Shown piece by piece: positions 2,853 through 37,536 of a stretch of 48,963 nucleotides of DNA. The notes beneath the pieces were generated by a model. That model was not told the DNA's origin, did no database searches, and was given only the letters and a program-made list of their open reading frames with translations. Numbering within the stretch: the stretch's first letter is position 1; the number at the start of each line of letters is the position of its first letter. The DNA is from Bacteroidaceae bacterium (lineage in GTDB: Bacteria; Bacteroidota; Bacteroidia; Bacteroidales; Bacteroidaceae). The DNA is taken from NCBI GenBank assembly GCA_017619585.1, contig JAFZSA010000043.1:1-48963 (forward strand), given 5' to 3'. The translations under genes and the position numbers were made by a program.

Positions 2853-2885
2853 CCCCCCCCTCCAACTCCCCCGAGGGGGAGGGAG
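2853..2885 (+). repeat. C/G-rich palindromic element, copy 1 (forward)
   Basis: It begins directly after the TAA at 2850-2852. It consists of CCCCCTCC, a short spacer, then the hairpin CTCCCCC-GA-GGGGGAG (2866-2881). It could act as a terminator or 3'-end RNA stabiliser. Confidence 0.8.
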
Positions 2886-2888
2886 TAA

Positions 2889-2948
2889 TTCATAGTTCAT
2901 AATTCATAATTCATAGTTCATAGTTACGCTAACCTTTAACCGCTAACC
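2889..2948 (+). repeat. TTCATAR heptamer array plus TTACGCTAACC module, copy 1
   Basis: Five consecutive 7-bp units (TTCATAG, TTCATAA, TTCATAA, TTCATAG, TTCATAG; 2889-2923) are followed by TTACGCTAACCTTTAACCGC and a further CTAACC. The same compound module recurs at 5968 and, inverted, at 11864. Confidence 0.8.
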
Positions 2949-2965
2949 AATAATCAATAACCGCT

Positions 2966-4450
2966 ATGTATAATATTATCAAGAAAATTCTCTCCCCCAA
3001 AGGGGGAGTCGGAGGGGGCCTTCTCTTCCTCTCCTTATCTATATTTGCCCAAACTCCTATCGCTCCGTTGCCCCAGCCTCAGCAGGTGGAGTGGCAGAAG
3101 ATGGAGACGTATGCCTTTGTGCACTATGGCCTGAATACCTTCAACGATAGCGAGTGGGGCTATGGCGATGCCGACCCCAAGGTGTTTAACCCCAGTCGGA
3201 TGGATGTGGAGCAGTGGGTACGCACCTTCAAGCAGGCAGGCATGAAGGGCGTGATTGTAGTTGCCAAGCATCACGACGGCTTTGCCATGTGGCCCTCTCC
3301 GCTGACGGAATATAACATCACAAAATCCTCTTACAACGGCCCTAAGAACAAGGACGGAAAGGTGGATGTGCTGGCAGAATTAAGAAAGGCTTGCGACAAA
3401 TACGGCCTGAAGATGGGCATCTATTTGTCGCCTTGGGACAGAAACCATGCTGAATACGGACGTCAGGCCTATGTGGATTACTACCACCAGCAGCTGACGC
3501 AGTTGGTTACGGAGTACGGTCCGCTCTTCGAGGTGTGGCTGGACGGTGCCAACGGTGGCGACGGCTACTACGGAGGGGCCCGTGAGAAGCGCAAGATAGA
3601 CCATCGCAACTATTACAACTACCCCAAGATTCACTCCATCATACAGGAGCATCAGCCACAGGCCATCATCTTCAGCGATGGAGGTCCAGGTTGCCGTTGG
3701 GTAGGTAACGAGAGGGGCGAGGCAGGTGCTACCAACTGGTCGTTCCTGCGCCAGAACGTTGTCTATCCGGGCTATGATAAGAGCAAAGAGCTGACAACAG
3801 GGCATCCTGACGGCGACAGCTGGGTTCCTGCCGAGTGCGATGTATCCATCCGTCCAGGTTGGTTCTATCACCCTGAGGAGGATACGAAGGTGAAGACACC
3901 AGAGCAGCTGGCAGACCTGTATTATAAATCGGTAGGGCACAATGCCACATTGTTGCTGAACTTCCCTGTGGATCGCGAGGGTAGGGTGAATGCCATAGAC
4001 AGCGCTAATGCCGTTGCTTTCCATCAGCTGATAAAGCAGGATTTGAAGACTGATTTGCTGCGTAAGGCCAAGGTAACAGCCACCAGTATCAGAGGCAAGA
4101 AATTCTCTGCTAAGAACCTGACTGACGGCAAATGGGACACCTACTGGTCAACGCCAGACGGCATGAATACAGGCGTGGTGACCTTTGCCTTCAAGAAACC
4201 CACGAAGGTGAACCGCCTGCTACTGCAGGAATACATCCCCTTAGGACAGCGGGTAAAAGCCTTCAAGGTAGAAGCTATGGTGGACGGAAAATGGCAAATG
4301 GTGGAGGCAGGCGAACCCACAACCACCATTGGCTACAAACGTATTCTGCGCTTCCCCACAACGGAAGCATCAGCCCTCAGAATCTCTGTTACAGATGCCC
4401 GTGGGCCACTTTGTCTGAATACTATCTCGGCTTATTTTGCCAGTCGGTAA
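2966..4450 (+). CDS. Alpha-L-fucosidase, GH29 family
   Basis: A secreted 494-residue enzyme that would release alpha-linked L-fucose from glycans. The GH29 (beta/alpha)8 domain spans about residues 35-345. It shows the family hallmarks VHYGLNTF, AKHHDGFAMWPS and FEVWLDGANGG; by family precedent Asp193 of the last motif is the nucleophile. The WLDGANG form resembles the GH29-B (alpha-1,3/1,4) group, which is an inference. A C-terminal beta-sandwich (about 355-494) looks like a discoidin/F5-8-type module. Oddly, the signal peptide is interrupted: residues 10-18 (SPKGGVGGG) are encoded by a palindromic repeat element (2992-3020), between the basic start and the hydrophobic core. The gene probably shares a transcript with the upstream acyltransferase. 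Its last 19 bp overlap the convergent dprA. Confidence 0.92.
   Translation: MYNIIKKILSPKGGVGGGLLFLSLSIFAQTPIAPLPQPQQVEWQKMETYAFVHYGLNTFNDSEWGYGDADPKVFNPSRMDVEQWVRTFKQAGMKGVIVVAKHHDGFAMWPSPLTEYNITKSSYNGPKNKDGKVDVLAELRKACDKYGLKMGIYLSPWDRNHAEYGRQAYVDYYHQQLTQLVTEYGPLFEVWLDGANGGDGYYGGAREKRKIDHRNYYNYPKIHSIIQEHQPQAIIFSDGGPGCRWVGNERGEAGATNWSFLRQNVVYPGYDKSKELTTGHPDGDSWVPAECDVSIRPGWFYHPEEDTKVKTPEQLADLYYKSVGHNATLLLNFPVDREGRVNAIDSANAVAFHQLIKQDLKTDLLRKAKVTATSIRGKKFSAKNLTDGKWDTYWSTPDGMNTGVVTFAFKKPTKVNRLLLQEYIPLGQRVKAFKVEAMVDGKWQMVEAGEPTTTIGYKRILRFPTTEASALRISVTDARGPLCLNTISAYFASR
2992..3020 (-). repeat. C/G-rich palindromic element, copy 2, translated inside the GH29 signal peptide
   Basis: Reverse-oriented copy: CTCCCCC-AAA-GGGGGAG then TCGGAGGGGGCC. 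It is read in frame as residues 10-18 of the fucosidase precursor. It matches copy 1 almost base for base when inverted. Confidence 0.85.
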
Positions 4451-5559
4451 CAGCCTCCGCTCAGCAGGCGTACCACTCCCTTCATCTCCAACCCGAAAAG
4501 CAGGCTGGTAAGTTTGCTGATGGGCAATGCAGTATCTACGGCAAGGATGTTCATCTGCTTGCTGTCGGTACCTGCAAGTGCCTTGACGATGCGCTGTTCC
4601 TCTTCCGTAAGGTCGGGGAAGAGCTCTTGTTGCAGTCCCTCGTTCATCTGCTTCCTCAAATTGCATTCCGTCTCCCATCCCATAGCCTTTACAAAGTCCT
4701 CGGCACAGGTGATGAGGCCCGCCCGATTGTCTTTTATCAGTAGGTTACAGCCCTCGGAATAGGTATCGCCAATACGTCCGGGGAAGGCAAATACATCACG
4801 TCCATAGTCTTCTGAAATCTCTGCTGTAATGAGCGAGCCGCCTTTCTTGGCACTCTCCACCACGATGGTGGCATCGGCCATTCCTGCCACGATGCGGTTG
4901 CGTTGCACGAAATGCAGTTTCTCGGCTGTGCTGCGTGAGGGGAATTCCGTCAGCAACCCTCCGTGCTGAACCATTTGGACGGCTGTATCACGATGGAATC
5001 GTGGATAAATCTGGTTCAATCCGTGCGCCAAGACTCCTATGGTGTCCATTCCCTGCTCCAAAGCGGCCCTATGGCAATGGATGTCCACTCCGTAGGCCAA
5101 TCCGCTGACTATCAGCGTATCAGGACAAAGCGCCTTCAGGTCCTTAACAAACTGCTGGCAGAGCTCCTTTCCGTAGGCAGTAATCTGGCGCGTTCCCACC
5201 ATACTGATGATGTGCTGGGCGTTCAGGGATGTGGTTCCTCTGTAATAAAGCAGCGTGGGTGCATCTGGGCATTCACGCAGTCGGGCAGGGTAGGCCTCGT
5301 CATTAAAGCCTATGCACTGGATGTGTCCTGCCTGAGCAAAGGCCAATTCCTCCTCGGCTCTCTTCAGGTGCATATCCATCAGGCCCAAAGCCTCTAATGT
5401 GGATTTGCTGGCATCAGGGAAAATGTCCCTGAGATTATGGCGTTGCTCGAAAATCTCTGTTGCCGAGCCCATTTTCTCCCACAACAGCTTGCGGTTCAGC
5501 AGGTTCAGGCGCGGAACAAAGGAGAAGGCTATGGCATAAAGGGTCTCCTGCTCTGTCAT
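4432..5559 (-). CDS. dprA: DNA processing protein DprA
   Basis: A 375-residue cytoplasmic protein that binds incoming single-stranded DNA and loads RecA during natural transformation. An N-terminal helical region (about 1-75) precedes a Rossmann-like DprA domain (about 80-290). Motifs include ISMVGTRQITAYG, SGLAYGVDIHCHRAAL (family motif SGxAxGID..AH), GLNQIYPRFH, FVQRNRIVAG and ESAKKGGSLITA. The C-terminal 65 residues form a winged-helix-like domain. The start overlaps the hotdog thioesterase stop by 4 bp (ATGA), so translation is probably coupled within a DUF2851-thioesterase-dprA operon. The 3' end overlaps the convergent fucosidase by 19 bp. Confidence 0.95.
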   Translation of the reverse strand: MTEQETLYAIAFSFVPRLNLLNRKLLWEKMGSATEIFEQRHNLRDIFPDASKSTLEALGLMDMHLKRAEEELAFAQAGHIQCIGFNDEAYPARLRECPDAPTLLYYRGTTSLNAQHIISMVGTRQITAYGKELCQQFVKDLKALCPDTLIVSGLAYGVDIHCHRAALEQGMDTIGVLAHGLNQIYPRFHRDTAVQMVQHGGLLTEFPSRSTAEKLHFVQRNRIVAGMADATIVVESAKKGGSLITAEISEDYGRDVFAFPGRIGDTYSEGCNLLIKDNRAGLITCAEDFVKAMGWETECNLRKQMNEGLQQELFPDLTEEEQRIVKALAGTDSKQMNILAVDTALPISKLTSLLFGLEMKGVVRLLSGGCYRLAK

Positions 5560-5963
5560 GCTTTCTCCAGATAGGGTTCCAACAATGTTTCCAACTCAGG
5601 GCACTCGCTCAGTTGTCCGTTCACCACGCAGACGGTATCTATCTGACTGCGCAGCACCATCATCTCGTCTGGCAGGCGGAAGATATCCTGATAGAAGACA
5701 AAGCGTATGCCTTCCTTCTTGATGCGCATACGGCACACAAATTCGTCGCCACTCTTCAGGGGCACCTTGAAGGCCATCTTCAGTCGTGCCACCACGGCAT
5801 CTATGCCACGGTTGTGCATATCGGCAAAACTGATGCCTGCCTGCAAGAGAAACTCGTGACGGGTATGTTCGGTGTAATGTTGGTAGTTGGCATTATTGAC
5901 AATGCCCTGAAGGTCGCACTCATAGTCGCGTACCTTCATCTTCAGTTCATAAACGTATTTCAT
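5556..5963 (-). CDS. Hotdog-fold acyl-CoA thioesterase (YbgC/4-hydroxybenzoyl-CoA thioesterase type)
   Basis: A 135-residue cytoplasmic hotdog protein. The segment VRDYECDLQGIVNNANYQHY (residues 11-30) matches the catalytic loop of YbgC/FadM-type thioesterases, where an Asp-x-x-Gly-x-Val-x-x-x-x-Y pattern surrounds the acyl-CoA site. Substrates of close relatives are short or medium acyl-CoA or acyl-ACP esters; the true substrate is not visible. It lies between DUF2851 and dprA on the minus strand, an arrangement I consider operonic. The 81-bp gap to DUF2851 is filled by repeat elements. Confidence 0.88.
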   Translation of the reverse strand: MKYVYELKMKVRDYECDLQGIVNNANYQHYTEHTRHEFLLQAGISFADMHNRGIDAVVARLKMAFKVPLKSGDEFVCRMRIKKEGIRFVFYQDIFRLPDEMMVLRSQIDTVCVVNGQLSECPELETLLEPYLEKA

Positions 5964-5967
5964 TTAA

Positions 5968-6024
5968 TTCACAATTCATAATTCATAGTTCATAGTTACG
6001 CTAACCGCTAACCTTTAACCGCTT
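5968..6024 (+). repeat. TTCATAR heptamer array plus TTACGCTAACC module, copy 2
   Basis: Units TTCACAA, TTCATAA, TTCATAG, TTCATAG (5968-5995) are followed by TTACGCTAACCGCTAACC and TTTAACCGCTT. It fills the spacer between DUF2851 and the thioesterase gene. Confidence 0.78.
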
Positions 6025-6030
6025 GTTTTT

Positions 6031-6054
6031 CCCCCTAAAGGGGGTTAGGGGGTC
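6031..6054 (-). repeat. C/G-rich palindromic element, copy 3, providing the DUF2851 stop codon
   Basis: On the minus strand ACCCCCTAACCCCC is followed by TTTAGGGGG. The last codons and the TAA stop of DUF2851 (Thr-Pro-stop) are encoded by the element itself. Confidence 0.7.
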
Positions 6055-7262
6055 TTCAAAAATTCATATGCAAAGCGGCAGCGAAGGCAATCTTTGCGGT
6101 CGCAGTATTCACGTTTCAGTTGTATCAAAGCCTGACTGTCGGCAGCCGTCTCAACGCTCAGTCCGCAAGCCTTCCATTGGCGCAGGATGTAGTTGTCCTC
6201 GGCTGGCAGCTCTTCCAGCAATGCCGTAGCCTTCTGGATAAGCTTCTCCTCGCTCCTATGGATGCCATAGGCATAGAGCAGCGGCACTATGGTGTTGACG
6301 ATAAGCAACCTACGACTGTTGGCCGATGTTCCTCCAACGGCCAGGATCCTGTGCATCTCCTTTATGTCTTTGGCTTCTATCAGGGCCGACATCTGCGCCT
6401 TGCCGCTGTGGTAGAGCTCGGCTATCTGCAGGATGCGGATATGCGGAAAATTCTTGGGGCGGGTGCGTAGGAATCTCCATTCGCTGGCTTTCATGGGCTC
6501 AGGCAGTTGGAACTTATGGGAGAGGAAAGCAAATTCACGCTTCCACTTTTCTGCCATCTCAGCACCCTTTACCTGTGCTGCATCGTCTATCAACCCTGCC
6601 ATTCCTAAGAAGATAGCCTCCACCTGGAACAGGTTATCCCTATGCTTGCCCACACTCTTCAAGGGAATCATCATAGCCCAACGCTCGAAGGTGTCGCCAT
6701 TCAGCCCGAAGCCGAAGTTACGGCACAATGTTACGAAGGTTGCCTGCTCCCAGTCGCCATTCAGGCGGTCGGCTCTGTCCTGCACTTTCTGGGCCCTCTC
6801 CTTCATGCGTTCAGCCAATAAGGCATCCATCCACATGTGGGCCTTCATGGTGGGGATAGAAGGGATGATACGGTGGCAACGTGGATAATCATCCGTCTGA
6901 CAAAGTTCCTGATAGTTCAGGTACAGGTGGGCAGGGATATCCAGTTGCAGCTGGGGAGGGTGGCTGCCCTCCTCAGTAGTAACCTCGCAGTCAATAACTT
7001 GTGCAACATGCAGGATGGTATTGTTGTAGGCAGAATCTATGTCGTGCCCATGCTTGAACCAGTCGGATGACTTCAGGTGCAGCTCCACATTGCCTGCCCA
7101 TAGCGTCCCGTCAATCTTGACTTTGGCATTGAAAAAATCAGGCCCTTGGTCGGTATTGTGCATGCCTGGGTCTATGATTTCCACCTCCCGACCGTCTGTC
7201 GTTAGCAATGCTTTCAGGGGAAGAATCTTATGTTTCCACACGTAATGGAGTAACTTTTCCAT
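6045..7262 (-). CDS. DUF2851 family protein
   Basis: A 405-residue protein of a Bacteroidota-typical family with no established function. The N-terminal region holds GPDFFNAKVKIDGTLWAGNV followed by ELHLKSSDW (about residues 38-68). The spacing of PD, E and K there is reminiscent of PD-(D/E)XK nucleases, but that is my inference only. The C-terminus has a cysteine cluster (YCDRKDCLRCRFAYE, about residues 387-401, plus an upstream Cys in KACGLS) that could bind a metal. The gene heads a minus-strand cluster with a thioesterase and dprA; linkage to dprA hints at nucleic-acid metabolism. A TACTTTTG box lies about 34 bp upstream of the start. Confidence 0.85.
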   Translation of the reverse strand: MEKLLHYVWKHKILPLKALLTTDGREVEIIDPGMHNTDQGPDFFNAKVKIDGTLWAGNVELHLKSSDWFKHGHDIDSAYNNTILHVAQVIDCEVTTEEGSHPPQLQLDIPAHLYLNYQELCQTDDYPRCHRIIPSIPTMKAHMWMDALLAERMKERAQKVQDRADRLNGDWEQATFVTLCRNFGFGLNGDTFERWAMMIPLKSVGKHRDNLFQVEAIFLGMAGLIDDAAQVKGAEMAEKWKREFAFLSHKFQLPEPMKASEWRFLRTRPKNFPHIRILQIAELYHSGKAQMSALIEAKDIKEMHRILAVGGTSANSRRLLIVNTIVPLLYAYGIHRSEEKLIQKATALLEELPAEDNYILRQWKACGLSVETAADSQALIQLKREYCDRKDCLRCRFAYEFLKTP

Positions 7263-7295
7263 ACGTTACAATCCTCATTAACTTAATTTTATATA

Positions 7296-7303
7296 CAAAA
7301 GTA
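7296..7303 (-). promoter_or_regulatory. Predicted -7 box for the DUF2851-thioesterase-dprA operon
   Basis: The minus strand reads TACTTTTG (TAnnTTTG), 34 bp ahead of the DUF2851 ATG at 7262. No other such box is seen ahead of the two downstream genes. Confidence 0.55.
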
Positions 7304-7325
7304 GTGAATTTTGGCCTAAAAGCAT

Positions 7326-7333
7326 TATTTTTG
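7326..7333 (+). promoter_or_regulatory. Predicted -7 box for dapB operon
   Basis: TATTTTTG fits TAnnTTTG, and the dapB ATG is at 7356. The box is divergent from the DUF2851 promoter 23 bp away, so the two transcription units share a short control region. Confidence 0.55.
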
Positions 7334-7355
7334 CACGTGAAATGTATAATAAGGT

Positions 7356-8072
7356 ATGAAAATAGCATTGATAGGATACGGCAAGATGGGCCGGATGATA
7401 GAGGAGATAGCCCTCTCGAGAGGTCATGAGATTGTTAGCATAATAGACATCGACAATCAGCAGGAGTTTGAATCAGAGGCTTTTGCCAGCGCCGATGTGG
7501 CCATAGAATTCACCACTCCCTGGACGGCATACGACAATTACCTGAAGGCTTGGAAGGCAGGCGTGAAGGTGGTGAGCGGTTCAACCGGCTGGATGAAGGA
7601 CCACGAGGCTGAGGTGCGTAAGGCTTGTACCACGGAAGGTAAGACCCTCTTCTGGGCCAGCAACTTCAGCGTAGGTGTAGCCATCTTCGGTGCTGTGAAC
7701 AAATACTTGGCTAAGATTATGAACCAGTTCGACCAGTACGATGTCAACATGGTAGAGACCCATCATGTGCACAAGCTGGATGCTCCCTCTGGTACTGCCA
7801 TCACCCTGGCAGAGCAGATTGTAGAGAACCTTGACCGTAAGGAGCGTTGGGGCTTGCACGAGACAAAGCCTGAGGTGCTGCGTATCGACGATATCCGCCA
7901 GAAGGAGGTTCCCGGTATTCATACCATAACATACGATTCCCCTGAGGATATGATTACCATCACCCACGATGCACATAACCGTCGCGGCTTTGCCATGGGT
8001 GCCGTCTTGGCTGCTGAGTATACTGCCAGCCATGAGGGATTGTTAACAATGTCTGACTTATTCCAGTTCTAA
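7356..8072 (+). CDS. dapB: 4-hydroxy-tetrahydrodipicolinate reductase
   Basis: A 238-residue cytoplasmic enzyme of the diaminopimelate/lysine pathway. It reduces 4-hydroxy-tetrahydrodipicolinate with NAD(P)H. The N-terminal nucleotide-binding motif is [10 protein letters not shown] (residues 5-14). The catalytic and substrate motif is [16 protein letters not shown] (about residues 131-146), with the His pair and the Lys of the family. At 238 residues it is slightly shorter than the E. coli enzyme, as is common in Bacteroidota. It is the first gene of a plus-strand run dapB-lepB-wbqC-like, an order often seen in the phylum. A C/G palindromic element follows the stop. Confidence 0.96.
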
Positions 8073-8074
8073 AA

Positions 8075-8104
8075 GCCTCCCCTTCCCCTCCAAAGGAAGG
8101 GGGA
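8075..8104 (+). repeat. C/G-rich palindromic element, copy 4
   Basis: CCTCCCCTTCCCC followed by TCCAAAGGAAGGGGG, starting 2 bp after the dapB stop. It is a divergent member of the family with the same C-run, stem and G-run layout. Confidence 0.6.
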
Positions 8105-8122
8105 AAGAAACAAAAACATACT

Positions 8123-9580
8123 ATGACAAAGAAAAGCAAGAAAAAAGTAGCTTGGGCCGATTGGGCTCGTGCCATCATATACAGTGCATTATACATAGCT
8201 TTCCTCTATTGGGTGGATGCCTGGTGGGGACTGATTGTACTTCCCTTTATCTTTGATGCCTATGTTACCCGCTTCATCCCCTGGACGTGGTGGAAGGATG
8301 CCGAGAACCCTGTTGTCCGTACCGTAATGGGTTGGGTGGATGCCATTGTCTTTGCCTTGGTAGCTGTCTATTTCGTAAACGTATATTTCTTCCAGAACTA
8401 CGTTATCCCCTCCAGCTCGTTGGAGAAGAGCCTCTTGGTAGGCGACTATCTGCTGGTAAGCAAACTCAGCTACGGTCCCCGTGTACCACAGACTCCCTTG
8501 CACATGCCCCTTTGTCAGCATACCTTGCCTTTAGGCTTGGGCAAGAGCTACATAGAATGGCCTCAATGGGAATACAAGCGTGTAAGTCCCAAGCCCATTA
8601 AACTGAATGATATTGTGGTATTCAACTATCCTGAAGGCGATACCATCCTGACTAATCCGGAGTTTCAGACAGATTATTATGCAAGATGTTATATCCATGG
8701 CTACGAGGCCAGACAGCAGCAGATAGAAAAGCCGTTCCCCATTTTGGACAGCCTTACCACTTTGCAGCAGCGCCAGTTTTTCCAGGAAGTATATAACTTG
8801 GGCAAAGAAGTTGTTAAGGCAAACGCTAATATTTTTGGCGAGATTGCTACCCGTCCTGTTGACCGTCGCGAGAACTACGTTAAACGTTGTGTAGGCTTGC
8901 CTGGTCAGACCTTGCAGATTAAGGACAAGGTGCTGTATCTGGATGGTAAGGTGAACCCCGACGCCCAGAATGTACAGTACATGTATAACGTTGACCTTAA
9001 GACCAATTACCTGCCAGATGATATCTGCTATGACTTGGGTCTGCGCATTGAAGATGTAAAAGAAATGTATCGGACAGGTCAGATTCCCCTGACTAAAGCT
9101 GCTAAGACTGCGTTGGAGAAACAAACGGCTTATGTGAACAGCGTAACTCCTGTGGAGCAAAAAGAGATAGGTGTACTTTATCCAAAGAATGCGTATACCG
9201 GTTGGACCTGTGATAATTACGGTCCCGTTTGGATTCCTAAGAAGGGAGAGAAGATTAAGCTTACATTGGAGAATCTGCCCGTCTATGAGCGCCCCATCCG
9301 CATTTACGAGGGTAATACATTGGATGTCACTCCCGAAGGTAAGATTGTTATCAATGGTAAGGAGGCCACGGAATACACCTTCAAGATGGATTATTACTGG
9401 ATGATGGGCGATAACCGCCATTGTTCTGCTGATAGTCGTTTCTGGGGCTTTGTGCCCGAGGACCACATCGTAGGTAAGCCCTTGATTATCTGGTGGAGTA
9501 CTGATGCTGACCGTTCTTGGTTGAGTGGACATCATGTCCGTTGGAACCGCCTGTTCCGTCTGGTGGACAATATTAAGTGA
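8123..9580 (+). CDS. lepB: Signal peptidase I (long Bacteroidota form)
   Basis: A 485-residue inner-membrane serine protease that removes signal peptides from exported proteins. Hydrophobic segments at about residues 14-45 and 70-90 precede the catalytic region. The [20 protein letters not shown] segment holds the nucleophile, by alignment Ser99 (box B, Leu replacing the usual Met). The [17 protein letters not shown] segment holds the general base Lys254 (box D). [19 protein letters not shown] near residues 430-448 is box E. A long insert (about residues 170-245) between boxes B and D makes it larger than E. coli LepB; such inserts are usual in Bacteroidales. It lies 50 bp after dapB. Confidence 0.95.
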
Positions 9581-9584
9581 AGAT

Positions 9585-9616: not shown

Positions 9617-9648
9617 ATTTGTTTAGATTAAGTTTAAAGAGTTTAAGA

Positions 9649-9680: not shown

Positions 9681-9682
9681 CA

Positions 9683-10240
9683 ATGATTGTTCTTCCTTGT
9701 TACTATTTGGCTCCAGTTTCGTACTATTCGGCCCTCTTCCGTGCCAAGGAAGGGGTGCTGCTGGAGGTGAACGACCGTTATCGTAAGCAGACTTTCCGTA
9801 ACCGTTGCATGATAGACAGCCCACAGGGTGCCCTTGCGCTGAGTATCCCTGTTGAGAAGCCTGCGCCTCATGCATTGATGCGTGATATCCGTATCAGCGA
9901 TCATGGTAATTGGCGACATTTGCATTGGAATGCCTTGCTGAGCAGCTACAGACAATCCCCTTTCTTTGAGTATTATGCAGACGATTTTGCTCCCTTCTAT
10001 GAGAAGAAGTGGGAGTTTCTGGCTGATTTCAACGAGGATTTGCTTCAGCTCGTCTGCTCTCTGATTGATATTGACACACCCCTTTCGCGTACTACCGCTT
10101 ATGCTGGTGAACTGCCAGAGTTTCCTCAAGTAGAGAAACCTTATTATCAGGTCTTTGCCCGTAAGCATGGGTTTCTGCAGGATTTAAGCATTGTGGATTT
10201 ACTTTTTAATATGGGTCCGGAGGGTATGCTATGGCTGTAG
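9683..10240 (+). CDS. WbqC family protein
   Basis: A 185-residue cytoplasmic protein of the WbqC family. Members are found in O-antigen/polysaccharide loci and, in Bacteroidota, in a conserved dapB-lepB-wbqC order; the biochemical function is unsettled. Visible family features are PCYYLAPVSYYSALF (residues 5-19), RYRKQTFRNRC with YRKQ basic residues, WRHLHWNALLSSYRQSPFFE (about 75-94) and the terminal DLLFNMGPEGMLWL. The ATG follows 2 bp behind an inverted C/G palindromic element, so its leader is unusual. The last 10 bp overlap the start of the pseudouridine synthase in another frame, suggesting coupled translation. Confidence 0.85.
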   Translation: MIVLPCYYLAPVSYYSALFRAKEGVLLEVNDRYRKQTFRNRCMIDSPQGALALSIPVEKPAPHALMRDIRISDHGNWRHLHWNALLSSYRQSPFFEYYADDFAPFYEKKWEFLADFNEDLLQLVCSLIDIDTPLSRTTAYAGELPEFPQVEKPYYQVFARKHGFLQDLSIVDLLFNMGPEGMLWL

Positions 10241-11871
10241 CAATTCATCCCTTCCCCCTTGGGGGAGAATGGGAGGGGGCTCTACCTGAAAAGTTCACTT
10301 ATCCTTTCTGCTACCAGCCTCATCCCTTATGTGTGATGGCTGCTCAGGAAGTCCGTGCCTATCTGAAAACCCAAAAGCAATGGGAACAGGAACTGAAGGC
10401 AGGTAAGATGTTTGGTGTCTTGGTGGTAGCCCCCAAAAACAATAGCCTCCCTCCTCGGAGGGAGGTTGGAGAGAGGGTCCTTTTCTTGGCCGCTTTCTCA
10501 GGAACCTTAGACGGAAAAACCTGCCATCCCTACTTTGTTCCACCAGTATTCGACCTGATGGAGCCTGGTTGTTATTTCCAACAGGAGCAGGAGGTGATAT
10601 CATCCATCAATGCAAGGATTTCTTCTCTACAGGCTCAGGTAAAAGAAAGTCCTTTGCGTGAACAGATGCAGCAGGAGGTGGATGCCTATCGCTCAAAGAT
10701 GCAACAAGAGAAAGAGGAACGCCATCGTTTGCGTGCAGAATTGCCTCCTGAGGAACTGGCAGCAAGAGAGCCGGAGATGATTAGGCAGAGCCAGTTCCAG
10801 AAGGCTGAGTTACGTAGATTGCAACAGGAATGGAAACGTAGGATAGAGGCTGATGAGGCTCCTTTGCGTGAGTTGCAGCAACAGATTCATCAATTGCAGG
10901 AGGAGCGTCACAATCGCAGTATTGCCCTTCAGCAATGGTTGTTCCAGCAGTTCACATTCCTGAATGCAAAGGGTCAGAGTAAGAATCTTACAGAACTCTT
11001 TGACGTAACGCCTCCCAGCGGTGCTGGTGAATGCTGCGCCCCACGTTTACTGCAAGCAGCCTACAAGGAGGGCTTGCAGCCAATTTGTATGGCAGAATTC
11101 TGGGTAGGTGATTCGCCTCGTGACGAGTTAAGACAGGAGGGGCACTTCTATCCTGCTTGTAACAGCAGATGCAAGCCTATATTAGGCCACATGCTGCAGG
11201 GACTAAAGGTGGAAGAGAATCCGTTGCTGGCTCAGGGAGAACAGAAACTGGAAGTTGTCTTTCAGAACGATGAGATGGCCATTGTGGCAAAACCTCATGG
11301 CATGCTTTCTGTGCCAGGGAAGGATAATCTGCCCAGTGTTCAGAGTATCGTAAAGGAGATGTTTCCACAGGCCACAGGACCTATGATTGTTCATCGCCTG
11401 GATATGGATACCAGCGGCCTGATGGTTATAGCCCTTACAGACGAGATGTACCACAAACTGCAGGAGGATTTCCGTTATCACAGAATCCAGAAAACCTATC
11501 GTGCGCTCCTGGAGAGAGAGATGCCCGTTGGTCAGCAAGGCGAGATACGCTTGCCTTTACGTCCTGATGTGATGGACCGTCCCCGTCAGATGGTGGATTA
11601 TCAGCATGGCAAGACGGCAGTAACATATTATAAGGTAATAGAGAATACAGAAGGACATGCTTTGGTGGAGCTGCAGCCTCATACAGGCAGGACCCATCAA
11701 TTACGTGTGCATTGTGCCCATCCTGATGGCTTGAACAATCCCATCGTGGGTGACCGCTTGTACGGAACCCCTTCTGAGCACCTTTGCCTTCAGGCTTATA
11801 AATTGGTTATTGAGGGCAGGGAATATACAATTGGCAGCCCCCTCCGGCTCCCCAAGGGGAGAGAAGGTTAA
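10231..11871 (+). CDS. RluA-type RNA pseudouridine synthase with N-terminal coiled-coil extension and in-frame repeat insertions
   Basis: A 546-residue protein. The C-terminal 220 residues (about 325-540) are an RluA-type catalytic domain that isomerises uridine in RNA; HRLDMDTSGLM holds the catalytic Asp391, and HTGRTHQLRVH is the conserved motif III. The N-terminal 300 residues include a globular part and a Gln/Glu-rich coiled coil (about residues 110-240), as in the long form I associate with Bacteroidales. Three stretches come from palindromic repeat elements: residues about 7-17 (FPLGGEWEGA), residues about 72-83 (LPPRREVGERV, inserted before FLAAFSG) and the very C-terminus (SPLRLPKGREG). 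The target RNA is not predictable from the sequence. The start overlaps the wbqC-like gene by 10 bp. Confidence 0.9.
   Translation: MAVAIHPFPLGGEWEGALPEKFTYPFCYQPHPLCVMAAQEVRAYLKTQKQWEQELKAGKMFGVLVVAPKNNSLPPRREVGERVLFLAAFSGTLDGKTCHPYFVPPVFDLMEPGCYFQQEQEVISSINARISSLQAQVKESPLREQMQQEVDAYRSKMQQEKEERHRLRAELPPEELAAREPEMIRQSQFQKAELRRLQQEWKRRIEADEAPLRELQQQIHQLQEERHNRSIALQQWLFQQFTFLNAKGQSKNLTELFDVTPPSGAGECCAPRLLQAAYKEGLQPICMAEFWVGDSPRDELRQEGHFYPACNSRCKPILGHMLQGLKVEENPLLAQGEQKLEVVFQNDEMAIVAKPHGMLSVPGKDNLPSVQSIVKEMFPQATGPMIVHRLDMDTSGLMVIALTDEMYHKLQEDFRYHRIQKTYRALLEREMPVGQQGEIRLPLRPDVMDRPRQMVDYQHGKTAVTYYKVIENTEGHALVELQPHTGRTHQLRVHCAHPDGLNNPIVGDRLYGTPSEHLCLQAYKLVIEGREYTIGSPLRLPKGREG
10251..10281 (-). repeat. 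C/G-rich palindromic element, copy 7, translated near the RluA-type N-terminus
   Basis: CTTCCCCC-TT-GGGGGAG then AATGGGAGGGGGC; read in frame as FPLGGEWEGA. Same orientation and same frame as the copy in the GH29 gene. Confidence 0.85.
10445..10479 (-). repeat. C/G-rich palindromic element, copy 8, translated inside the RluA-type N-terminal domain
   Basis: CCTCCCTCC-TC-GGAGGGAGG then TTGGAGAGAGGG; read in frame as LPPRREVGERV between VVAPKNN and LFLAAFSG. Same orientation and frame as copies 2 and 7. Confidence 0.82.
11837..11863 (+). repeat. C/G-rich palindromic element, copy 9, encoding the RluA-type C-terminus
   Basis: GCCCCCTCCGG then CTCCCC-AA-GGGGAG, forward orientation. It is translated as the last residues PLRLPKGRE; the stop codon comes from the repeat module that follows. 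Confidence 0.8.
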
Positions 11872-11942
11872 AGGTTAAAGGTTAGCGTAACTATGAACTA
11901 TGAACTATGAATTGTGAATTATGAACTATGAATTATGAATTG
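11864..11942 (-). repeat. TTACGCTAACC module plus heptamer array, copy 3 (inverted), bridging a stop and a start codon
   Basis: AAGGTTAAAGGTTAAAGGTT, then AGCGTAAC, followed by about eight ATGAACT/ATGAATT-type heptamers. The first TTAA supplies the stop of the pseudouridine synthase (11869-11871). One ATG of the heptamers (11928) is the start of the PHP gene. Confidence 0.8.
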
Positions 11943-31709: not shown

Positions 31710-31719
31710 GAAAAAGAAA

Positions 31720-31760: not shown

Positions 31761-31779
31761 TGCAAAAATAGAATGGTTA

Positions 31780-32043: not shown

Positions 32044-32096
32044 AACTTTGCGTTTTTAGATGTTTATAATTTAGTTAAATTCAATAATTTGTATCA

Positions 32097-32104
32097 CAAA
32101 AATA
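32097..32104 (-). promoter_or_regulatory. Predicted -7 box of the HU gene
   Basis: The minus strand reads TATTTTTG, 54 bp ahead of the HU ATG. Confidence 0.5.
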
Positions 32105-32202
32105 GGTAATCTTGGTATATAGCCCAAGTTTTTTTGTAAAAAAATGTAAGAAAATGCGAAAAAATCCCTTTTAGAATGCGTGTAATGGGCCCTCTTTTGT
32201 TT

Positions 32203-32218
32203 TATTTTTGTATTTTTG
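32203..32218 (+). promoter_or_regulatory. Predicted -7 boxes (tandem) of the rhomboid gene
   Basis: Two adjacent TATTTTTG boxes (32203-32210 and 32211-32218) precede the ATG at 32245. Confidence 0.5.
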
Positions 32219-32244
32219 CGCCGTAATTAGGAATTTTGATTGTT

Positions 32245-33192
32245 ATGAATAATATGCCTCCTGTAACCAAGAATCTGCTTATCATTAACGTGTTGTTCTT
32301 TGCAGCGCGCTGGGTAGCAGCTCTTCCTGCTTATGGTATAGACCTTGACGATGTACTGGGCCTACACTTCTTTATGGCCAGTCATTTCTATTTCTACCAG
32401 CTTTTCACGTACATGTTCATGCATGGTAGTTTCTCGCACTTGTTCTTCAATATGTTTGCCGTCTGGATGTTCGGCCGTATTATGGAGAGTACGATGGGCT
32501 CCAAGCGTTTCCTATTCTATTACCTGACGTGTGGTCTGGGAGCCGGAATGATGCAGGAGCTGGTTCAGTTTGGCAACTACTGGATAGAGGGTTTGGGTAA
32601 CTATGAGATGGCAAGCGTTGGCGGAATGCAGATTCCTATGGCGGAGTACCTGAACCGTTGGACTACGGTAGGAGCTTCCGGTGCCGTGTATGGTATCCTA
32701 CTTTCCTTTGGTATGACGTTCCCTAACGAGCGACTGTTTATCTTCCCGCTTCCCATTCCTATCCGTGCCAAGTACTTTGTGGTGGGATATGCTGTGATAG
32801 AACTGATGTCGGCTCTGGGTCGCCCAGGCGATGGCATAGCACATTTTGCTCATCTGGGTGGTATGCTTGTAGGCCTTTTGTTGCTTCTCTATTGGCGTAA
32901 TGGTGGTGGAAACCGTAATAGCGGTCATCGTAATTACTATGACAGAGACTATTATGACAAAGGCTCGGGCGGTTTTAATTTCCGTCGTTGGTTTGCAAAG
33001 AAGTTTACCCGTAAGAATCCGGATATCAAGGTTACCTATGGTGGTAAATACGAGCAGGACTTCGCCTACAAGCAGCGTCAGCAAGAAGAAGAGGCAGAGC
33101 TGAACCGCATACTTGACAAGGTAAAGAAGAGCGGATACACAAATCTTACAGAAGAAGAGAAACGCCGGCTCTTCGACAAAAGCAAGAAATAA
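32245..33192 (+). CDS. Rhomboid-family intramembrane serine protease
   Basis: A protein of about 315 residues. The ATG at 32245 is preferred over an in-frame TTG at 32236. About six membrane helices cover residues 8-220. FMHGSFSHLFFNMFAVWMFG (about 55-75) is the helix 2 motif with His/Asn. TTVGASGAVYGIL carries the nucleophile Ser145, and AHFAHLGGMLVG carries the catalytic His. It cleaves membrane-spanning substrates in the inner membrane. The C-terminal 90 residues are basic, Gly/Tyr/Lys-rich and cytoplasmic, ending in a charged helix (EEEAELNRILDKVKKSG). The stop overlaps the start of the EEP gene (TAATG), so the two are coupled. Confidence 0.94.
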   Translation: MNNMPPVTKNLLIINVLFFAARWVAALPAYGIDLDDVLGLHFFMASHFYFYQLFTYMFMHGSFSHLFFNMFAVWMFGRIMESTMGSKRFLFYYLTCGLGAGMMQELVQFGNYWIEGLGNYEMASVGGMQIPMAEYLNRWTTVGASGAVYGILLSFGMTFPNERLFIFPLPIPIRAKYFVVGYAVIELMSALGRPGDGIAHFAHLGGMLVGLLLLLYWRNGGGNRNSGHRNYYDRDYYDKGSGGFNFRRWFAKKFTRKNPDIKVTYGGKYEQDFAYKQRQQEEEAELNRILDKVKKSGYTNLTEEEKRRLFDKSKK

Positions 33193-34268
33193 TGCTGAAC
33201 AGAAAGAAAAAGACAAGCCCTTTTGTGCGTGTGCTCATAGGTATATTCCTGGGAGCTAATATATGTACAGTCCTGCTCATGTGGCTGGCTGTTGTTTCTA
33301 CCTTTATCTCACCCAGTTCACATCCTACTCTTTCATTGTTAGGGCTTTTCTTCCCCATATTCGTGGCGGTGGATATTGCCTTTTTCTTTTTCTGGCTGAT
33401 ATTCCGTTTCTATCTGGTCTGGGTCCCTTTAGTGGGATTGATGGTTGTGGCTGGCTATGCTATGGATTATTGTCCCATCAATACAAAGAAATACCTTTCT
33501 GACAGTGCCATCTGTGTTGTTACCTATAACCTGGGGGGCGTTACGGATGAAGAAGGCCGGCAGGAGGTGCTGTGTTTCCTGAAGGAGAAATCTCCGGATA
33601 TTGTATGTCTTCAGGAGACGTACGGTCCTCTTGTGAATATGAAAGAGTTCCAGCATTTTGCCGACTCTATGGGGTATCATCGTGTAATGGGAACTGGAAA
33701 ATGTATCCTTACCCGTTTCCCCGTCCTTGGTGATACCTTGCATATAGACTATCCAACCCGAAAGAATAGCAGTATGGCTTGTTGGGTTCGCTGTCAGGGA
33801 GACAGCCTGTTGCTGGTGAGCAACCATCTTGAGAGTAATGCACTTTCTGATTCCGACAAGACGGAGTATAAGAACATGATTCTGGATCCTGAACAGCAAC
33901 GCGTAGAAAAAGGAAGTCGGGTCTTGCTTCGTAAACTCAGGGATGCCGCCAGTTACCGTGGTGCACAGACAGATACGCTTTGTGCTCTGATAGACAGAAA
34001 TGAAGGAAAGAGCATAATCATGTGTGGCGATTTCAATGACACCCCCATCTCCTATACATACCAGCGTCTGGCCAGCAGATTGGATTGTGCTTACCGCAAA
34101 ATAGGCAGGGGAGTGGGCTTTACTTATAGACAAAGTGGTATCTATGTGCGTATAGATCATATATTTGCCTCTTCAGACTGGCAATGCATAAAATGCTATG
34201 TAGATGATGAGGTAAGGGCCTCTGACCACTTCCCGGTAGTTGCCTATCTGCAGAAGAAAGACCAATAA
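33192..34268 (+). CDS. Membrane-anchored endonuclease/exonuclease/phosphatase (EEP) family protein
   Basis: A 358-residue protein. Three hydrophobic segments occupy residues about 12-95. The EEP domain (about 105-355) follows: VVTYNLGG, IVCLQETYG (metal Glu), LLLVSNHLESN, IIMCGDFNDTPIS and the final ASDHFPVVA (catalytic His). In this superfamily the domain hydrolyses phosphodiester or phosphate bonds in nucleic acids, lipids or inositol phosphates. The orientation would place it outside the cytoplasmic face or near the membrane. Rhomboid-EEP neighbours of this kind are common in Bacteroidota. Start codon overlaps the rhomboid stop by one base. Confidence 0.9.
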   Translation: MLNRKKKTSPFVRVLIGIFLGANICTVLLMWLAVVSTFISPSSHPTLSLLGLFFPIFVAVDIAFFFFWLIFRFYLVWVPLVGLMVVAGYAMDYCPINTKKYLSDSAICVVTYNLGGVTDEEGRQEVLCFLKEKSPDIVCLQETYGPLVNMKEFQHFADSMGYHRVMGTGKCILTRFPVLGDTLHIDYPTRKNSSMACWVRCQGDSLLLVSNHLESNALSDSDKTEYKNMILDPEQQRVEKGSRVLLRKLRDAASYRGAQTDTLCALIDRNEGKSIIMCGDFNDTPISYTYQRLASRLDCAYRKIGRGVGFTYRQSGIYVRIDHIFASSDWQCIKCYVDDEVRASDHFPVVAYLQKKDQ

Positions 34269-34326
34269 AATACCATTATCATATAAAATTTTTGGTGCAA
34301 ATTATAATTAGTAAAGGAAAAATGTG

Positions 34327-34334
34327 TATCTTTG
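34327..34334 (+). promoter_or_regulatory. Predicted secDF -7 box
   Basis: TATCTTTG, followed by a leader of about 55 nt to the ATG at 34394. No clear -33 box. Confidence 0.55.
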
Positions 34335-34393
34335 CGCACTATTGATAGACTGAACGAAACTTATAAACTACAAAACAATAATTAATTAACACA

Positions 34394-37300
34394 ATGCAAA
34401 ACAAAGGATTTGTAAAGGTTTTCGCAGTCCTGCTGACTCTGGTTTGCCTCTTCTACCTGAGTTTCTCAGTGGTTACCAACCACTTCGAGAATAAGGCTGA
34501 GGAGATTGCTCAGACTGAGGGTCAGGAAGCTGCCGACCGTTACTTGGATTCTCTGCTCAACAACAAGGTGTACTGCAATGTCTGGACATTGAAGGAGTGC
34601 CGTGAGATGGGAATCGGATTGGGTCTGGACCTGAAGGGTGGTATGAACGTTATCCTGGAGGTTAGTGTACCCGATGTAGTAAAGGCTTTGGCAGACCACA
34701 AGGAAGAGACTGACGAGAACTTCCGCAAGGCCGTCGAGCAGGCGACCAGCGAGGCTGCAAACAGCCAGAGTGACTTTATTACCTTATTTATTAAAGACTA
34801 CAAGGCATTGGAGCCCAACAAGGCTCTGGCTGAGCTTTTCGCAACTCAGCAGTTGCGTGATAAGGTAACAACCAAGAGTACAGACAAGCAGGTTGAGAAG
34901 GTGCTCCGCGAGGAAGTGAAGAGTGCCATCGACAACTCATACAATGTGCTCCGTACCCGTATTGACCGTTTCGGTGTTGTTCAGCCTAACATTCAGGCCC
35001 TGGAGGGTCAGGAAGGCCGCATCATGGTTGAAATGCCTGGTGTAAAGGAACCCGAGCGTGTACGTAAACTGTTGCAGGGAAGTGCTAACCTGGAGTTCTG
35101 GGAGACATACAACTCTCAGGAGATTGTTCCCTTCCTGGCTACTTTGGATACCAAGTTGGCTGCTGTAATGAGCAATATCAAGGATGAGGCTCCTGCTGAT
35201 TCTGCTGCTGTTGCAGAGGCTCCTGCTGATACCACAGCCGTTGATACTGCTGCTGTCCAGAAGGATCTGGCTGCTGTAGTAGGCGGTAACGCTGAAGAGA
35301 AGAAGGAGACAGCTGTTTCTACTGCCGACATTGAGAAGGCACGTAAGCAGCATCCTCTTATGACCCGTCTTCAGCTTGCTCAGGGCGCTTATGGTTGCGT
35401 AGTAGGTTATGCCCACAAGCGTGACATGGCTGCTATTGATGAATTGCTGAATTCTCCCGAAGCCAAGGAGGTTCTTCCTTCTGACCTTCGTCTCAAGTGG
35501 GGTGTTAAGGGTGTTGGTGAAGGTGAGTCTTCTAACGTCTATGAGCTGTATGCCATCAAGGTAACAGAGCGTAATGGCCGTGCTCCTTTGGAGGGTGATG
35601 TAATCACCGATGCCAAGGATGAGTTCGATCAGAACGGTCAGCCTTGTGTTAGCATGAAGATGAATGTTGACGGTGCTCGCCGTTGGGCTGCCCTTACAAA
35701 GGCTAACCTGAAGCGTTGCGTTGCCATCGTTCTGGACGACAATGTATATAGTGCTCCTACTGTACAGAGCGAGATTACCGGTGGTAACTCACAGATTACC
35801 GGTCGTTTCACAACAGAGGATACACGTGACCTTGCCAACGTATTGAAGTCTGGTAAGATGCCCGCTCCCGCTAAGATTGTGAGCGAGGAGATTGTTGGTC
35901 CCTCTCTGGGTGCTGAGTCTATCCAGCAGGGTATCCTGAGCTGTATCATCGCCTTCGTAATCCTGATGGTTTACATGATTGTGATGTACGGTACTATCCC
36001 CGGTATGGTTGCTAACTGCGCCCTGATTCTGAACCTCTTCTTCACCGTAGGTATCCTGACCAGTTTCCAGGCTGCCCTTACCATGAGCGGTATTGCCGGT
36101 ATGGTACTGACACTGGGTATGGCTGTGGATGCCAACGTGCTTATCTACGAGCGTACCAAGGAGGAGATGAAGGCTGGCAAGAAGGTTCGCGAGGCTCTTT
36201 CTGCTGGTTACAGCAATGCCTTCAGCGCTATCTTCGACTCTAACCTGACCTCTATCATTACCGCTGTTATCCTTTACTACTTCGGTACAGGACCTATCCG
36301 CGGTTTCGCTACCACACTGTTCATCGGTATCTGCGTCAGCTTCTTTACTGCCGTATTCCTGACCCGTGTAGTTTATTCACAGGTTATGGCTAAGGACAAG
36401 TGGTTGGGTCTGACCTTCCGCACCGCTATTGGTGACAAGATATCTTTCCAGAACCCCACTTTCAAGTTCATGAGTGCTTACAAGAAGAGCTTCGCTATCT
36501 TTGGCGTGCTGGCTGTTATCAGCGTAGGCTTCATGCTTGGCCGTGGCTTCAGCAAGAGTATTGACTTTACAGGTGGCCGTAACTACGTTGTTATGTTCGA
36601 GAATGAAGTACAGCCCGAGGCTGTTCGTCCTATCTTGGCAGAGGCCTTCCCCGAGAGTAATACCAGTGTTATTGCCTTGGGTACTGGCGGCAAGACTGTA
36701 CGTATCTCTACCAACTACCGCATCCAGGAAGATGGCATTGAGGTAGATAGCGAGATTGAGCAGAAGTTGTTCGACGCCCTCAAGGCTGGTAATCTCTTGA
36801 CCAGTGACCTTACTGTAGAAAACTTCATCAACCGTGATGAGCGTGCAGGTGGTTCTATCATCAGCAGCCAGAAGGTTGGTCCTTCTGTTGCCGAGGATAT
36901 TACTAATGGTGCTATCTGGAGTGTCATTCTGGCCTTCATAGCCATCTTCGCATACATCTTTATCCGTTTCCGTAACCTTGCCTTCTCAGTAGGTGCCATC
37001 ACCGCTCTGATTATAGACATTGTTCTGATTCTGGGTATGTATGCTATCTGGTGGGGTATCCTGCCCTTCTCATTGGAGATTGACCAGACCTTCATTGGTG
37101 CCGTGCTTACCGCTATCGGTTATTCTATCAACGATAAGGTGGTAGTATTCGACCGTATCCGTGAGTACATTGGTCTCTATCCCAAGCGTGACCGTCAGGA
37201 ACTCTTCAATAGCTCACTGAACAGCACATTGAACCGTACTATCAACACCTCTGTCAGCACATTCATCGTACTGGCTGTAATCTTCTGCCTGGGTGGTGCT

Positions 37301-37429
37301 AGCATCCGCAGCTTCGCTTTCGCAATGATTCTGGGTGTTATTTTCGGTACATTGTCATCAATCTTTGTTGCTGCTCCTACTGCTTACCTGACTATGGGTA
37401 AGACCATTAAGGAGAACGAGGAGAAGTAA
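34394..37429 (+). CDS. secDF: Protein translocase subunit SecDF (fused)
   Basis: A 1011-residue inner-membrane protein that uses the proton gradient to help preproteins leave the Sec channel. SecD half: first helix about residues 7-27, GLGLDLKGGMNVILEV (D1 motif), a large periplasmic domain, then helices with GTIPGMVANCALILNLFF and LGMAVDANVLIYERTKEEM (D5). SecF half (from about residue 695): GFSKSIDFTGGRNYVVMFE, YSINDKVVVFDRIRE and the final helices. The periplasmic region has an Ala/Pro/Asp-rich linker (about residues 260-300). The fusion is usual for Bacteroidota. Codon usage is that of a well-expressed gene. A palindromic element and a bidirectional terminator follow the stop. Confidence 0.96.
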   Translation: MQNKGFVKVFAVLLTLVCLFYLSFSVVTNHFENKAEEIAQTEGQEAADRYLDSLLNNKVYCNVWTLKECREMGIGLGLDLKGGMNVILEVSVPDVVKALADHKEETDENFRKAVEQATSEAANSQSDFITLFIKDYKALEPNKALAELFATQQLRDKVTTKSTDKQVEKVLREEVKSAIDNSYNVLRTRIDRFGVVQPNIQALEGQEGRIMVEMPGVKEPERVRKLLQGSANLEFWETYNSQEIVPFLATLDTKLAAVMSNIKDEAPADSAAVAEAPADTTAVDTAAVQKDLAAVVGGNAEEKKETAVSTADIEKARKQHPLMTRLQLAQGAYGCVVGYAHKRDMAAIDELLNSPEAKEVLPSDLRLKWGVKGVGEGESSNVYELYAIKVTERNGRAPLEGDVITDAKDEFDQNGQPCVSMKMNVDGARRWAALTKANLKRCVAIVLDDNVYSAPTVQSEITGGNSQITGRFTTEDTRDLANVLKSGKMPAPAKIVSEEIVGPSLGAESIQQGILSCIIAFVILMVYMIVMYGTIPGMVANCALILNLFFTVGILTSFQAALTMSGIAGMVLTLGMAVDANVLIYERTKEEMKAGKKVREALSAGYSNAFSAIFDSNLTSIITAVILYYFGTGPIRGFATTLFIGICVSFFTAVFLTRVVYSQVMAKDKWLGLTFRTAIGDKISFQNPTFKFMSAYKKSFAIFGVLAVISVGFMLGRGFSKSIDFTGGRNYVVMFENEVQPEAVRPILAEAFPESNTSVIALGTGGKTVRISTNYRIQEDGIEVDSEIEQKLFDALKAGNLLTSDLTVENFINRDERAGGSIISSQKVGPSVAEDITNGAIWSVILAFIAIFAYIFIRFRNLAFSVGAITALIIDIVLILGMYAIWWGILPFSLEIDQTFIGAVLTAIGYSINDKVVVFDRIREYIGLYPKRDRQELFNSSLNSTLNRTINTSVSTFIVLAVIFCLGGASIRSFAFAMILGVIFGTLSSIFVAAPTAYLTMGKTIKENEEK

Positions 37430-37430
37430 A

Positions 37431-37463
37431 ACCCCCTCTCCGACTCTCCCGAGGGGGAGGGAC
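37431..37463 (+). repeat. C/G-rich palindromic element, copy 12 (forward)
   Basis: ACCCCCTCTCCGA then CTCTCCCGAGGGGGAG, directly behind the secDF stop. Confidence 0.8.
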
Positions 37464-37470
37464 TATAAAT

Positions 37471-37504
37471 AAAAATAGGACTCAGGTTTCTGGGTCCTAT
37501 TTTT
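37471..37504. terminator. Bidirectional terminator between secDF and the sialidase gene
   Basis: AAAAATAGGACTCAG (37471-37485) pairs with CTGGGTCCTATTTTT (37490-37504) around a 4-nt loop with one G-U position. The A- and T-tracts at both ends suit termination in both directions. Confidence 0.85.
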
Positions 37505-37513
37505 GTATGCTTA

Positions 37514-37536
37514 CTCTCCCATGGAGAAGGAGGGGA
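37514..37536 (-). repeat. C/G-rich palindromic element, copy 13 (diverged, inverted)
   Basis: CTCTCCCATGGAGAAGGAGGGG, ending at the sialidase stop codon. It is inverted relative to copy 12, giving a facing pair around the terminator. Confidence 0.5.

Follow-up and report, generated by a model that had tools for sequence, protein, structure and literature searches.

The stretch of DNA analysed here, the window, comprises 48,963 nt of contig JAFZSA010000043.1 from a Bacteroidaceae bacterium (assembly GCA_017619585.1). It carries a short C/G-rich palindromic element, which a first-pass annotation had listed at 13 sites; we have inspected each of these individually. Read in a common orientation, the unit consists of a pyrimidine tail (consensus CCCCCTCC), about 3 nt, and a CTCCCC...GGGGAG hairpin with a loop of mostly 2-3 nt. 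Each copy is very probably a half or a whole unit of a short mobile element of the non-autonomous kind, akin to repetitive extragenic palindromic sequences (REPs) and their hairpin-forming doublets (REPINs), which is kept and translated where the reading frame is intact. The copies and two host genes are listed below. Numbers with G denote genomes, those with L denote loci; the relatives of the window were identified by scanning 84,980 species genomes for its RluA-type protein, and the best 80 of 217 loci were used.

2853..2885, plus strand: element copy, left half of a doublet with 2992; begins directly after a stop codon; present as a variant in L001
2966..4450, plus strand: host gene, alpha-L-fucosidase with F5/8 type C domain
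2990..3020, minus strand: element copy within the signal-peptide coding part of the alpha-L-fucosidase gene, translated as LSPKGGVGGG; common to the window and L001
6029..6054, minus strand: element copy (CCCCCTAA...) over the last 10 nt of a DUF2851 gene; missing in L001
8074..8106, plus strand: weak, degenerate copy in the interval between dapB and a signal peptidase gene; missing in L001
9585..9616, plus strand: element copy, left half of a doublet with 9649; missing in L001
9646..9679, minus strand: element copy, right half of the doublet with 9585, the whole doublet folding as one hairpin (z -6.5); missing in L001
10231..11871, plus strand: host gene, RluA-type pseudouridine synthase with three copies
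10248..10281, minus strand: element copy forming the N-terminus of the RluA-type protein (PFPLGGEWEGA); not in L001-L004
10446..10478, minus strand: element copy inside the RluA-type gene (SLPPRREVGERV), in frame; also in L001, L002 and L003, degraded in L004, none in L005-L013 and L016
11836..11868, plus strand: element copy forming the C-terminus of the RluA-type protein (SPLRLPKGREG); missing in L001
25778..25808, plus strand: element copy, left half of a doublet with 25820; not in L001 or L003
25814..25849, minus strand: element copy, right half of the doublet with 25779; not in L001 or L003
37431..37463, plus strand: element copy, begins 1 nt past a secDF-like gene
37510..37540, minus strand: weak copy over the end of the next gene (37537-39210, minus strand), doublet partner of 37431

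Tail and hairpin are clearly present at 11 of the 13 sites; the other two, 8075 and 37514, are weak. A perfect stem of 6-9 bp exists in 10 of the 11 clear copies. The remaining one, at 37431, has a 5-bp perfect core within a longer stem with one mismatch. At 8075 the perfect stem does not exceed 3 bp, at 37514 it has 5 bp. The search employed exact patterns and a hairpin finder; the C-rich arms align ambiguously. Allowing up to two mismatches, the core pattern has 9 matches at 8 sites of the window against 1.8 expected, and none of 100 shuffles reaches 9. The finder for tail plus hairpin reports 8 units; in 60 dinucleotide shuffles it averages 0.017 and never exceeds 1. Both excesses taken together, chance is no explanation for the copies. 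Most of them overlap a gene end or are only a few nucleotides away, in agreement with the initial remark that they touch stop or start codons. Four pairs form inverted doublets with the tails pointing outwards (2853/2992, 9585/9649, 25779/25820 and 37431/37514), an arrangement which the first-pass annotation had overlooked. AT-rich heptamer repeats (AATTCAT and its complement) are located beside or inside element copies at 2887-2921, 5966-5993 and 11893-11941.

Reading the genes bears out that the copies at 2992, 10251 and 10445 are translated. Two further copies were said to be translated at C-termini. For 11837, the C-terminus of the RluA-type protein, this is correct; a second case is less clear, as the copy at 6031 overlaps the last 10 nt of its gene and that at 37514 the last 4. 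A single reading frame shared by the three in-gene copies had also been claimed. This is only in part correct: 2992 and 10251 agree on the hairpin arm, and 2992 and 10445 agree on the tail; the three never agree on both.

A comparison with close relatives gives presence and absence of individual copies. Collinearity of the window with L001, from an uncultured Prevotellaceae (87% identity), covers most of 1-19.6 kb and resumes at 25.1 kb; with L004, from a Bacteroidaceae (76%), it runs from about 2.2 kb to 19.6 kb. Within the stretch common to the window and L001, the latter lacks 6031, 8075, 9585/9649, 10251, 11837 and 25779/25820 and has 2853 (as a variant), 2992 and 10445. A clean and old insert is that in the RluA-type protein. 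According to our own count in the alignment the copy at 10445 lengthens the segment between GVLVV and FLAAFS by about 11-15 residues relative to distant orthologues. The insert is present in the window and L001, L002 and L003, with a degraded version in L004. Ten distant sequences (L005-L013 and L016) are without it, hence the peptide is not ancestral; orthologues in distant lineages carrying the same peptide, which would speak against insertion, were not seen among these ten. In L003, at about 713-796, the hairpin loop of the old RluA insert itself contains a further in-frame insert of 27 aa, i.e., an insertion into an insertion.

The doublets define the unit. Of 71 element pairs spaced by up to 300 bp, 63 have their tails pointing outwards and a single one has them pointing inwards; the two tandem arrangements account for 5 and 2. 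When the 126 ends of the doublets are examined, the position ahead of the C-run (-1) is G in 113 and position -2 is A in 103. The unit therefore reads AG-CCCCCTCC ... GGAGGGGG-CT. The AG is mostly missing from the doublets of the window itself. Two whole doublets fold as single hairpins with z-scores of -10.2 and -13.3, and in L006 and L266 the doublet stem extends over about 33 bp, i.e., terminal inverted repeats are present. The centre of the unit is variable. At the centre of many units of G140, G111 and G126 stands CCATCCGGATGG or a closely similar sequence, which units of G005 and G006 do not have. In L006 two unrelated genes, WbqC-like and QueG-like, each contain a 101-bp unit; the two centres are closely related, and the units are read in opposite directions. 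The WbqC unit is open in all six frames; it reads SPLPAPPLGECHNPTGQGSFGGNGALPQRGSGEGA (35 codons, 105 nt including AG/CT), and the opposite strand gives the same end peptides. The unit in L266 is open in just 2 of six frames.

How widespread is the element? The exact genome pattern was CCCCTCC, 2-6 nt, TCCCC, 2-6 nt, GGGGA. It has 63 matches in G001, 28 in G002, 17 in G003, 7 in G004, 41 in G005, 31 in G006, 21 in G007, none in G008-G010 and 4 in G011. As a control, reversing the pattern leaves a single match in these 11 genomes together. Among 151 genomes sampled from the GTDB family of G001, 45 have the element, with up to 107 matches each. Sampling of the phylum gave 13 element-bearing genomes out of 296; 12 of these have 1-4 copies, and G001 alone has more than 4. 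As sampled, the element is dense only in part of one GTDB family. Genomes assembled from metagenomes possibly have gaps or binning errors. The element is a short palindrome in dozens of copies per genome with a conserved unpaired tag, AG-CCCCCTCC, at one end of the hairpin.

The location of the copies with respect to genes was analysed in regions fetched around listed copies of G001 (38 regions), G005 (20), G111 (20), G140 (40) and G126 (20), plus the window and L001-L007; genes were called with a home-made dicodon scorer of open reading frames, and elements with identical 30-nt flanks were counted once. This yielded 263 distinct elements, 116 inside called genes, 141 intergenic and 6 across a gene edge. 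The in-gene copies are not confined to gene ends: 72 of the 116 are at least 90 nt away from both. They occur in both orientations and in all six orientation/phase classes, forward phase 0 being rare (5/116). In this wider set the claim of a shared reading frame does not hold. By Pfam, the host genes comprise MiaB, RibD, HPPK, a ThiD-type kinase, RmlD, an RNase R-type RNB protein, methionine synthase, a DsbD-like protein, an ABC protein and a DEAD-box helicase, to which the RluA-type, QueG-like and WbqC-like genes are added. In these genes of unrelated function the insertion is in frame and the host protein family is intact.

Strikingly different pictures emerge for individual genomes. In G005, 34 of 43 elements are inside called genes; in G140 it is 19 of 83, with 61 intergenic. 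Among whole doublets, leaving out four of the 63 which are longer than 160 bp, 10 of 12 are wholly in genes in G005 versus 2 of 23 in G140 (Fisher p 2e-5). Measured against the coding fraction by a binomial test, G005 (0.90) does not deviate (p 0.35), whereas G140 (0.83) does (p 2e-14). The units differ in length, mostly 76 bp in G140 and mostly 89-101 bp in G005. Open frames number 3-5 of six per unit in G140 and 2-6 of six in G005. Stop codons are thus no commoner in units of G140, which points to frame preservation. When the terminal AG/CT is counted, lengths of 89, 92, 101 and 110 become multiples of 3; 76 does not. This is strong, though not final, evidence that frame decides where units survive, with lengths being measured from tail to tail. 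Tentatively, and with somewhat less confidence than doubt, one may go further: in gene-dense genomes the element would be translation-adapted selfish DNA, its frame-keeping, stop-free units colonising coding sequence and repeatedly the same permissive loops of core enzymes, its frame-breaking lengths being confined to intergenic DNA, and its length modulo 3 being a selected trait. If true, the element is a steady source of new protein segments.

Occupied and empty alleles of core enzymes were compared in homologue lists consisting of the best 120 of about 8000 scored per family, which are biased towards the query. The solved structure of Bacteroides uniformis MiaB (7MJV) and MiaB of G001 can be aligned except at an insert after GQNVNSY in the latter. 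Among the 120 listed homologues 7 have 34-36 aa in this loop and 113 have 4-19 aa. The 7 inserts use two readings one base apart, which requires at least two events, or one event plus an indel. In an AlphaFold2 model of MiaB with the insert (mean predicted local distance difference test score, pLDDT, 68.8) the insert at 206-237 has a pLDDT below 50 and no secondary structure, as does, with respect to pLDDT, most of 125-159; the model weakly suggests a disordered insert. The same MiaB loop carries another peptide, QFTIHNSQFIIG, in 22 of the 120 listed homologues. It back-translates as an array of the AT-rich heptamer, and this peptide suggests that a second repeat may be translated there.

The DEAD-box helicase and RmlD present a similar situation. 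Between TAAYGLPLL and ILSPTREL of the helicase, 53 of the 120 listed sequences have loops of at least 20 aa with several distinct element peptides, and short-loop alleles are 92-93% identical to long-loop ones (P0130, 92%). In RmlD, 36 of the 120 listed have loops of at least 20 aa and 80 have exactly 16 aa. By a motif list the long loops are element-like in 7 of 7 cases for MiaB, 42 of 53 for the helicase and 30 of 36 for RmlD; some of the others resemble other repeats. One and the same loop harbours different element subfamilies depending on the lineage. In some lineages the helicase loop contains yet another, third type of repeat peptide (NGLDGEN...PIKPINPI), as in the homologues P0182, P0222, P0228 and P0239, i.e., one loop is colonised by several unrelated repeats. 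In the WbqC-like gene different doublets are present at nearly the same place in L007 (about 9810-9920) and L006 (9806-9906), and L005 has a short, unrelated loop.

Rickettsia palindromic elements are palindromic mobile DNA located in frame inside genes for unrelated functional proteins. The likeness of the present element to these in mode of insertion, suggested at the outset, is supported by its in-frame insertion in conserved enzymes. The phylum differs, and here one deals with dimers of a tagged hairpin. The contrast between genomes with frame-keeping and frame-breaking units does not appear in the portions of the Rickettsia descriptions available to us. PMC3733652 describes REPs with GTAG or CGTC tags, head-head dimers and translated intragenic copies, most REPs being intergenic; translated copies reach their highest numbers in O. 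terrae (GTAG) and R. conorii (CGTC), CGTC repeats are listed in Bacteroidetes, and Rickettsia and certain REP-bearing genomes are known to have translated palindromic elements. Our element resembles REPs, REPINs and bacterial interspersed mosaic elements by a conserved unpaired tag on one end of a short hairpin, by dimers with the tags outside, by dozens to hundreds of copies, by a patchy distribution and by translation of some copies in genes, REP dimers or groups encoding 20-30 aa (PMC3733652). Unlike these superfamilies its tag is AG-CCCCCTCC, neither GTAG nor CGTC, and unlike the mainly intergenic REPs most of its copies in G005 are in genes; in G140 the distribution is REP-like (PMC3733652). 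The literature searched, from which subscription journals were mostly outside coverage, contained no description of a CCCCCTCC element in Prevotella or Bacteroidales. In its behaviour the element corresponds to a REPIN and, where it lies in genes, to a Rickettsia palindromic element; new about it are the tag, the taxon and the share in genes.

A mechanism may be envisaged as follows. The full unit would be an inverted doublet of about 75-140 bp, composed of an AG-CCCCCTCC tail, a hairpin, a variable centre, a hairpin and a GGAGGGGG-CT tail. It would move within genomes of one GTDB family, landing inside and between genes, probably as a single-stranded hairpin handled by an HUH transposase encoded elsewhere. 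Frame-breaking copies would be lost by selection. Frame-keeping, stop-free copies would be retained in tolerant loops and termini and translated as Pro/Gly-rich loops, whose length would be about 10 aa for a half unit and about 30-36 aa for a whole one. Translated palindrome insertion, so far known mainly from Rickettsia, then becomes testable in a common animal-gut group, as insertion at scale in rumen Bacteroidaceae/Prevotellaceae and in housekeeping enzymes. Alleles with and without the insert that share about 90% protein identity, and different subfamilies at one loop, allow direct tests of selfish-DNA translation, loop tolerance and length evolution. Annotators should be aware that Pro/Gly-rich loops of these proteomes (SPLPAPPLGEC...ALPQRGSGEGA and similar ones) are in many cases probably mobile DNA and not conserved domains.

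The initial proposal of a mobile, protein-tolerated element is supported by presence and absence in close relatives, by in-frame insertion in conserved enzymes and by both orientations, mobility being deduced from comparison. Several points weigh against it or against the frame argument. The gene caller is crude, and regions were picked around matches, not at random. The list of element-peptide motifs was drawn up after the peptides had been seen. A clean empty site at the DNA level was not found for a whole doublet, and at the WbqC site the flanking loop itself is replaced. The lone half copy at 2851-2886 folds no better than shuffles (z -1.05). Intermediate genomes have 3 of 10 (G001) and 2 of 6 (G111) doublets in genes. 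Finally, with AG/CT counted, 6 of the 10 in-gene doublets of G005 fit a multiple of three; three of 90 bp and one of 138 bp do not.

Could the copies be ordinary intrinsic terminators or mRNA-stabilising hairpins which converged by GC-rich composition? Several copies of the window touch stop codons and the hairpins of whole doublets are strong, as such an origin would have it. However, TTTT follows within 10 nt 3' of the hairpin in 7 of 263 elements (2 of the 141 intergenic ones) compared to 9.4% of background intergenic 10-mers, 116 of the 263 are inside called genes, copy number is either zero or dozens within one family, the tail and the AG/CT ends are conserved outside the hairpin, and an Rfam search of the window gave no match at gathering thresholds. 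A generic terminator, largely refuted in this manner, is thus most improbable. Spread by template copying or gene conversion among C-rich stretches, with no transposase and with the loops being hypervariable low-complexity regions which take up any repeat, is unlikely, yet considerably less so. The peptides of apparently other repeats in the same loops (QFTIHNSQFIIG in MiaB, NGLDGEN...PIKPI in the helicase) and the heptamers beside copies of the window fit this notion; the defined ends, the related centres of the WbqC-like and QueG-like doublets in L006 and the tails-out bias need a defined unit.

Which enzyme, then, would move the element? A family resembling REP-associated tyrosine transposases (RAYTs) is a candidate. 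As aligned, its members have about 290-380 aa with HUH (PDHxH) and Y...NP motifs and a C-terminal extension. All 14 of 14 members match the NCBI model for REP-associated tyrosine transposases (best E 2.5e-11), the single score shown being 19 bits, below the cut-off of 80. The family is present in 29 of 45 element-bearing and 16 of 106 element-free genomes (odds ratio 10.2, p 7e-9, ignoring phylogeny). G002-G006 have it, element-free G008-G010 do not. With its HUH and Y...NP motifs it is similar to RAYT (TnpA-REP) subclass 2.6 of Bacteroidetes, whose genes, according to PMC6006769, are flanked by atypical palindromes or secondary structures repeated elsewhere in the genome. That a RAYT-like enzyme acts on the element in trans is a guess to which we give an even chance.

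The competing view, that the element is mobile and was moved by a different transposase or by a lost parent transposon, i.e., is a miniature inverted-repeat transposable element (MITE), is a serious possibility, which we consider somewhat below even. A non-autonomous inverted repeat of about 75-140 bp with terminal inverted repeats does look like a MITE; no parent transposon was seen, and with regard to a target duplication the terminal AG/CT may belong to element or target. Several facts speak for it and, at the same time, against a RAYT-like mover. Among the RAYT-like genes examined none has the CCCCCTCC element at both ends. Of 20 family genomes with at least 10 copies 5 lack the RAYT-like family (G032, G044, G047, G111 with 107 copies and G126 with 73), as does G007 with 21 copies; perhaps these absences stem from draft gaps. 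In L115 (1501-2232, G026) a 732-bp stretch lies between inverted element copies with extended ends GGGGGAGTGCTC, perhaps the remnant of a longer, once autonomous element. Conversely, the co-occurrence of element and RAYT-like family, in the genome samples and in G002-G006 as opposed to G008-G010, has no counterpart for short IS200-type Y1 transposases, and tail-plus-hairpin in tails-out dimers is REP architecture.

Other candidates for cognate loci were set aside. A RAYT-like gene forming a REPtron with the CCCCCTCC element is unsupported by the flanks of the examined genes; one element copy is located within about 1 kb at a few RAYT-like loci, e.g., L176/L247, L296, L297, L308 and L383. At L297 (G154), at first sight promising, an element-like copy lies about 200 bp off one flank; the opposite flank has a terminator-like hairpin with T-run. 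Four RAYT-like genes (L163, L164, L177 and L371) carry palindromes at both ends (TGCTGCAAC, CTCGGCAC and TGTTGCGT) which are not those of the CCCCCTCC element. RAYT-like genes with their own flanking palindromes are a little-described REPtron family. Genes of this type have several paralogues in some genomes, and their C-terminal extension has no consistent Pfam match. Short IS200-type Y1 transposases show no association with the element (odds ratio 1.4, p 0.48); two of these, L081 and L082, have their own palindromes, CCCAGGGC or CCCAAGGC, on both sides.

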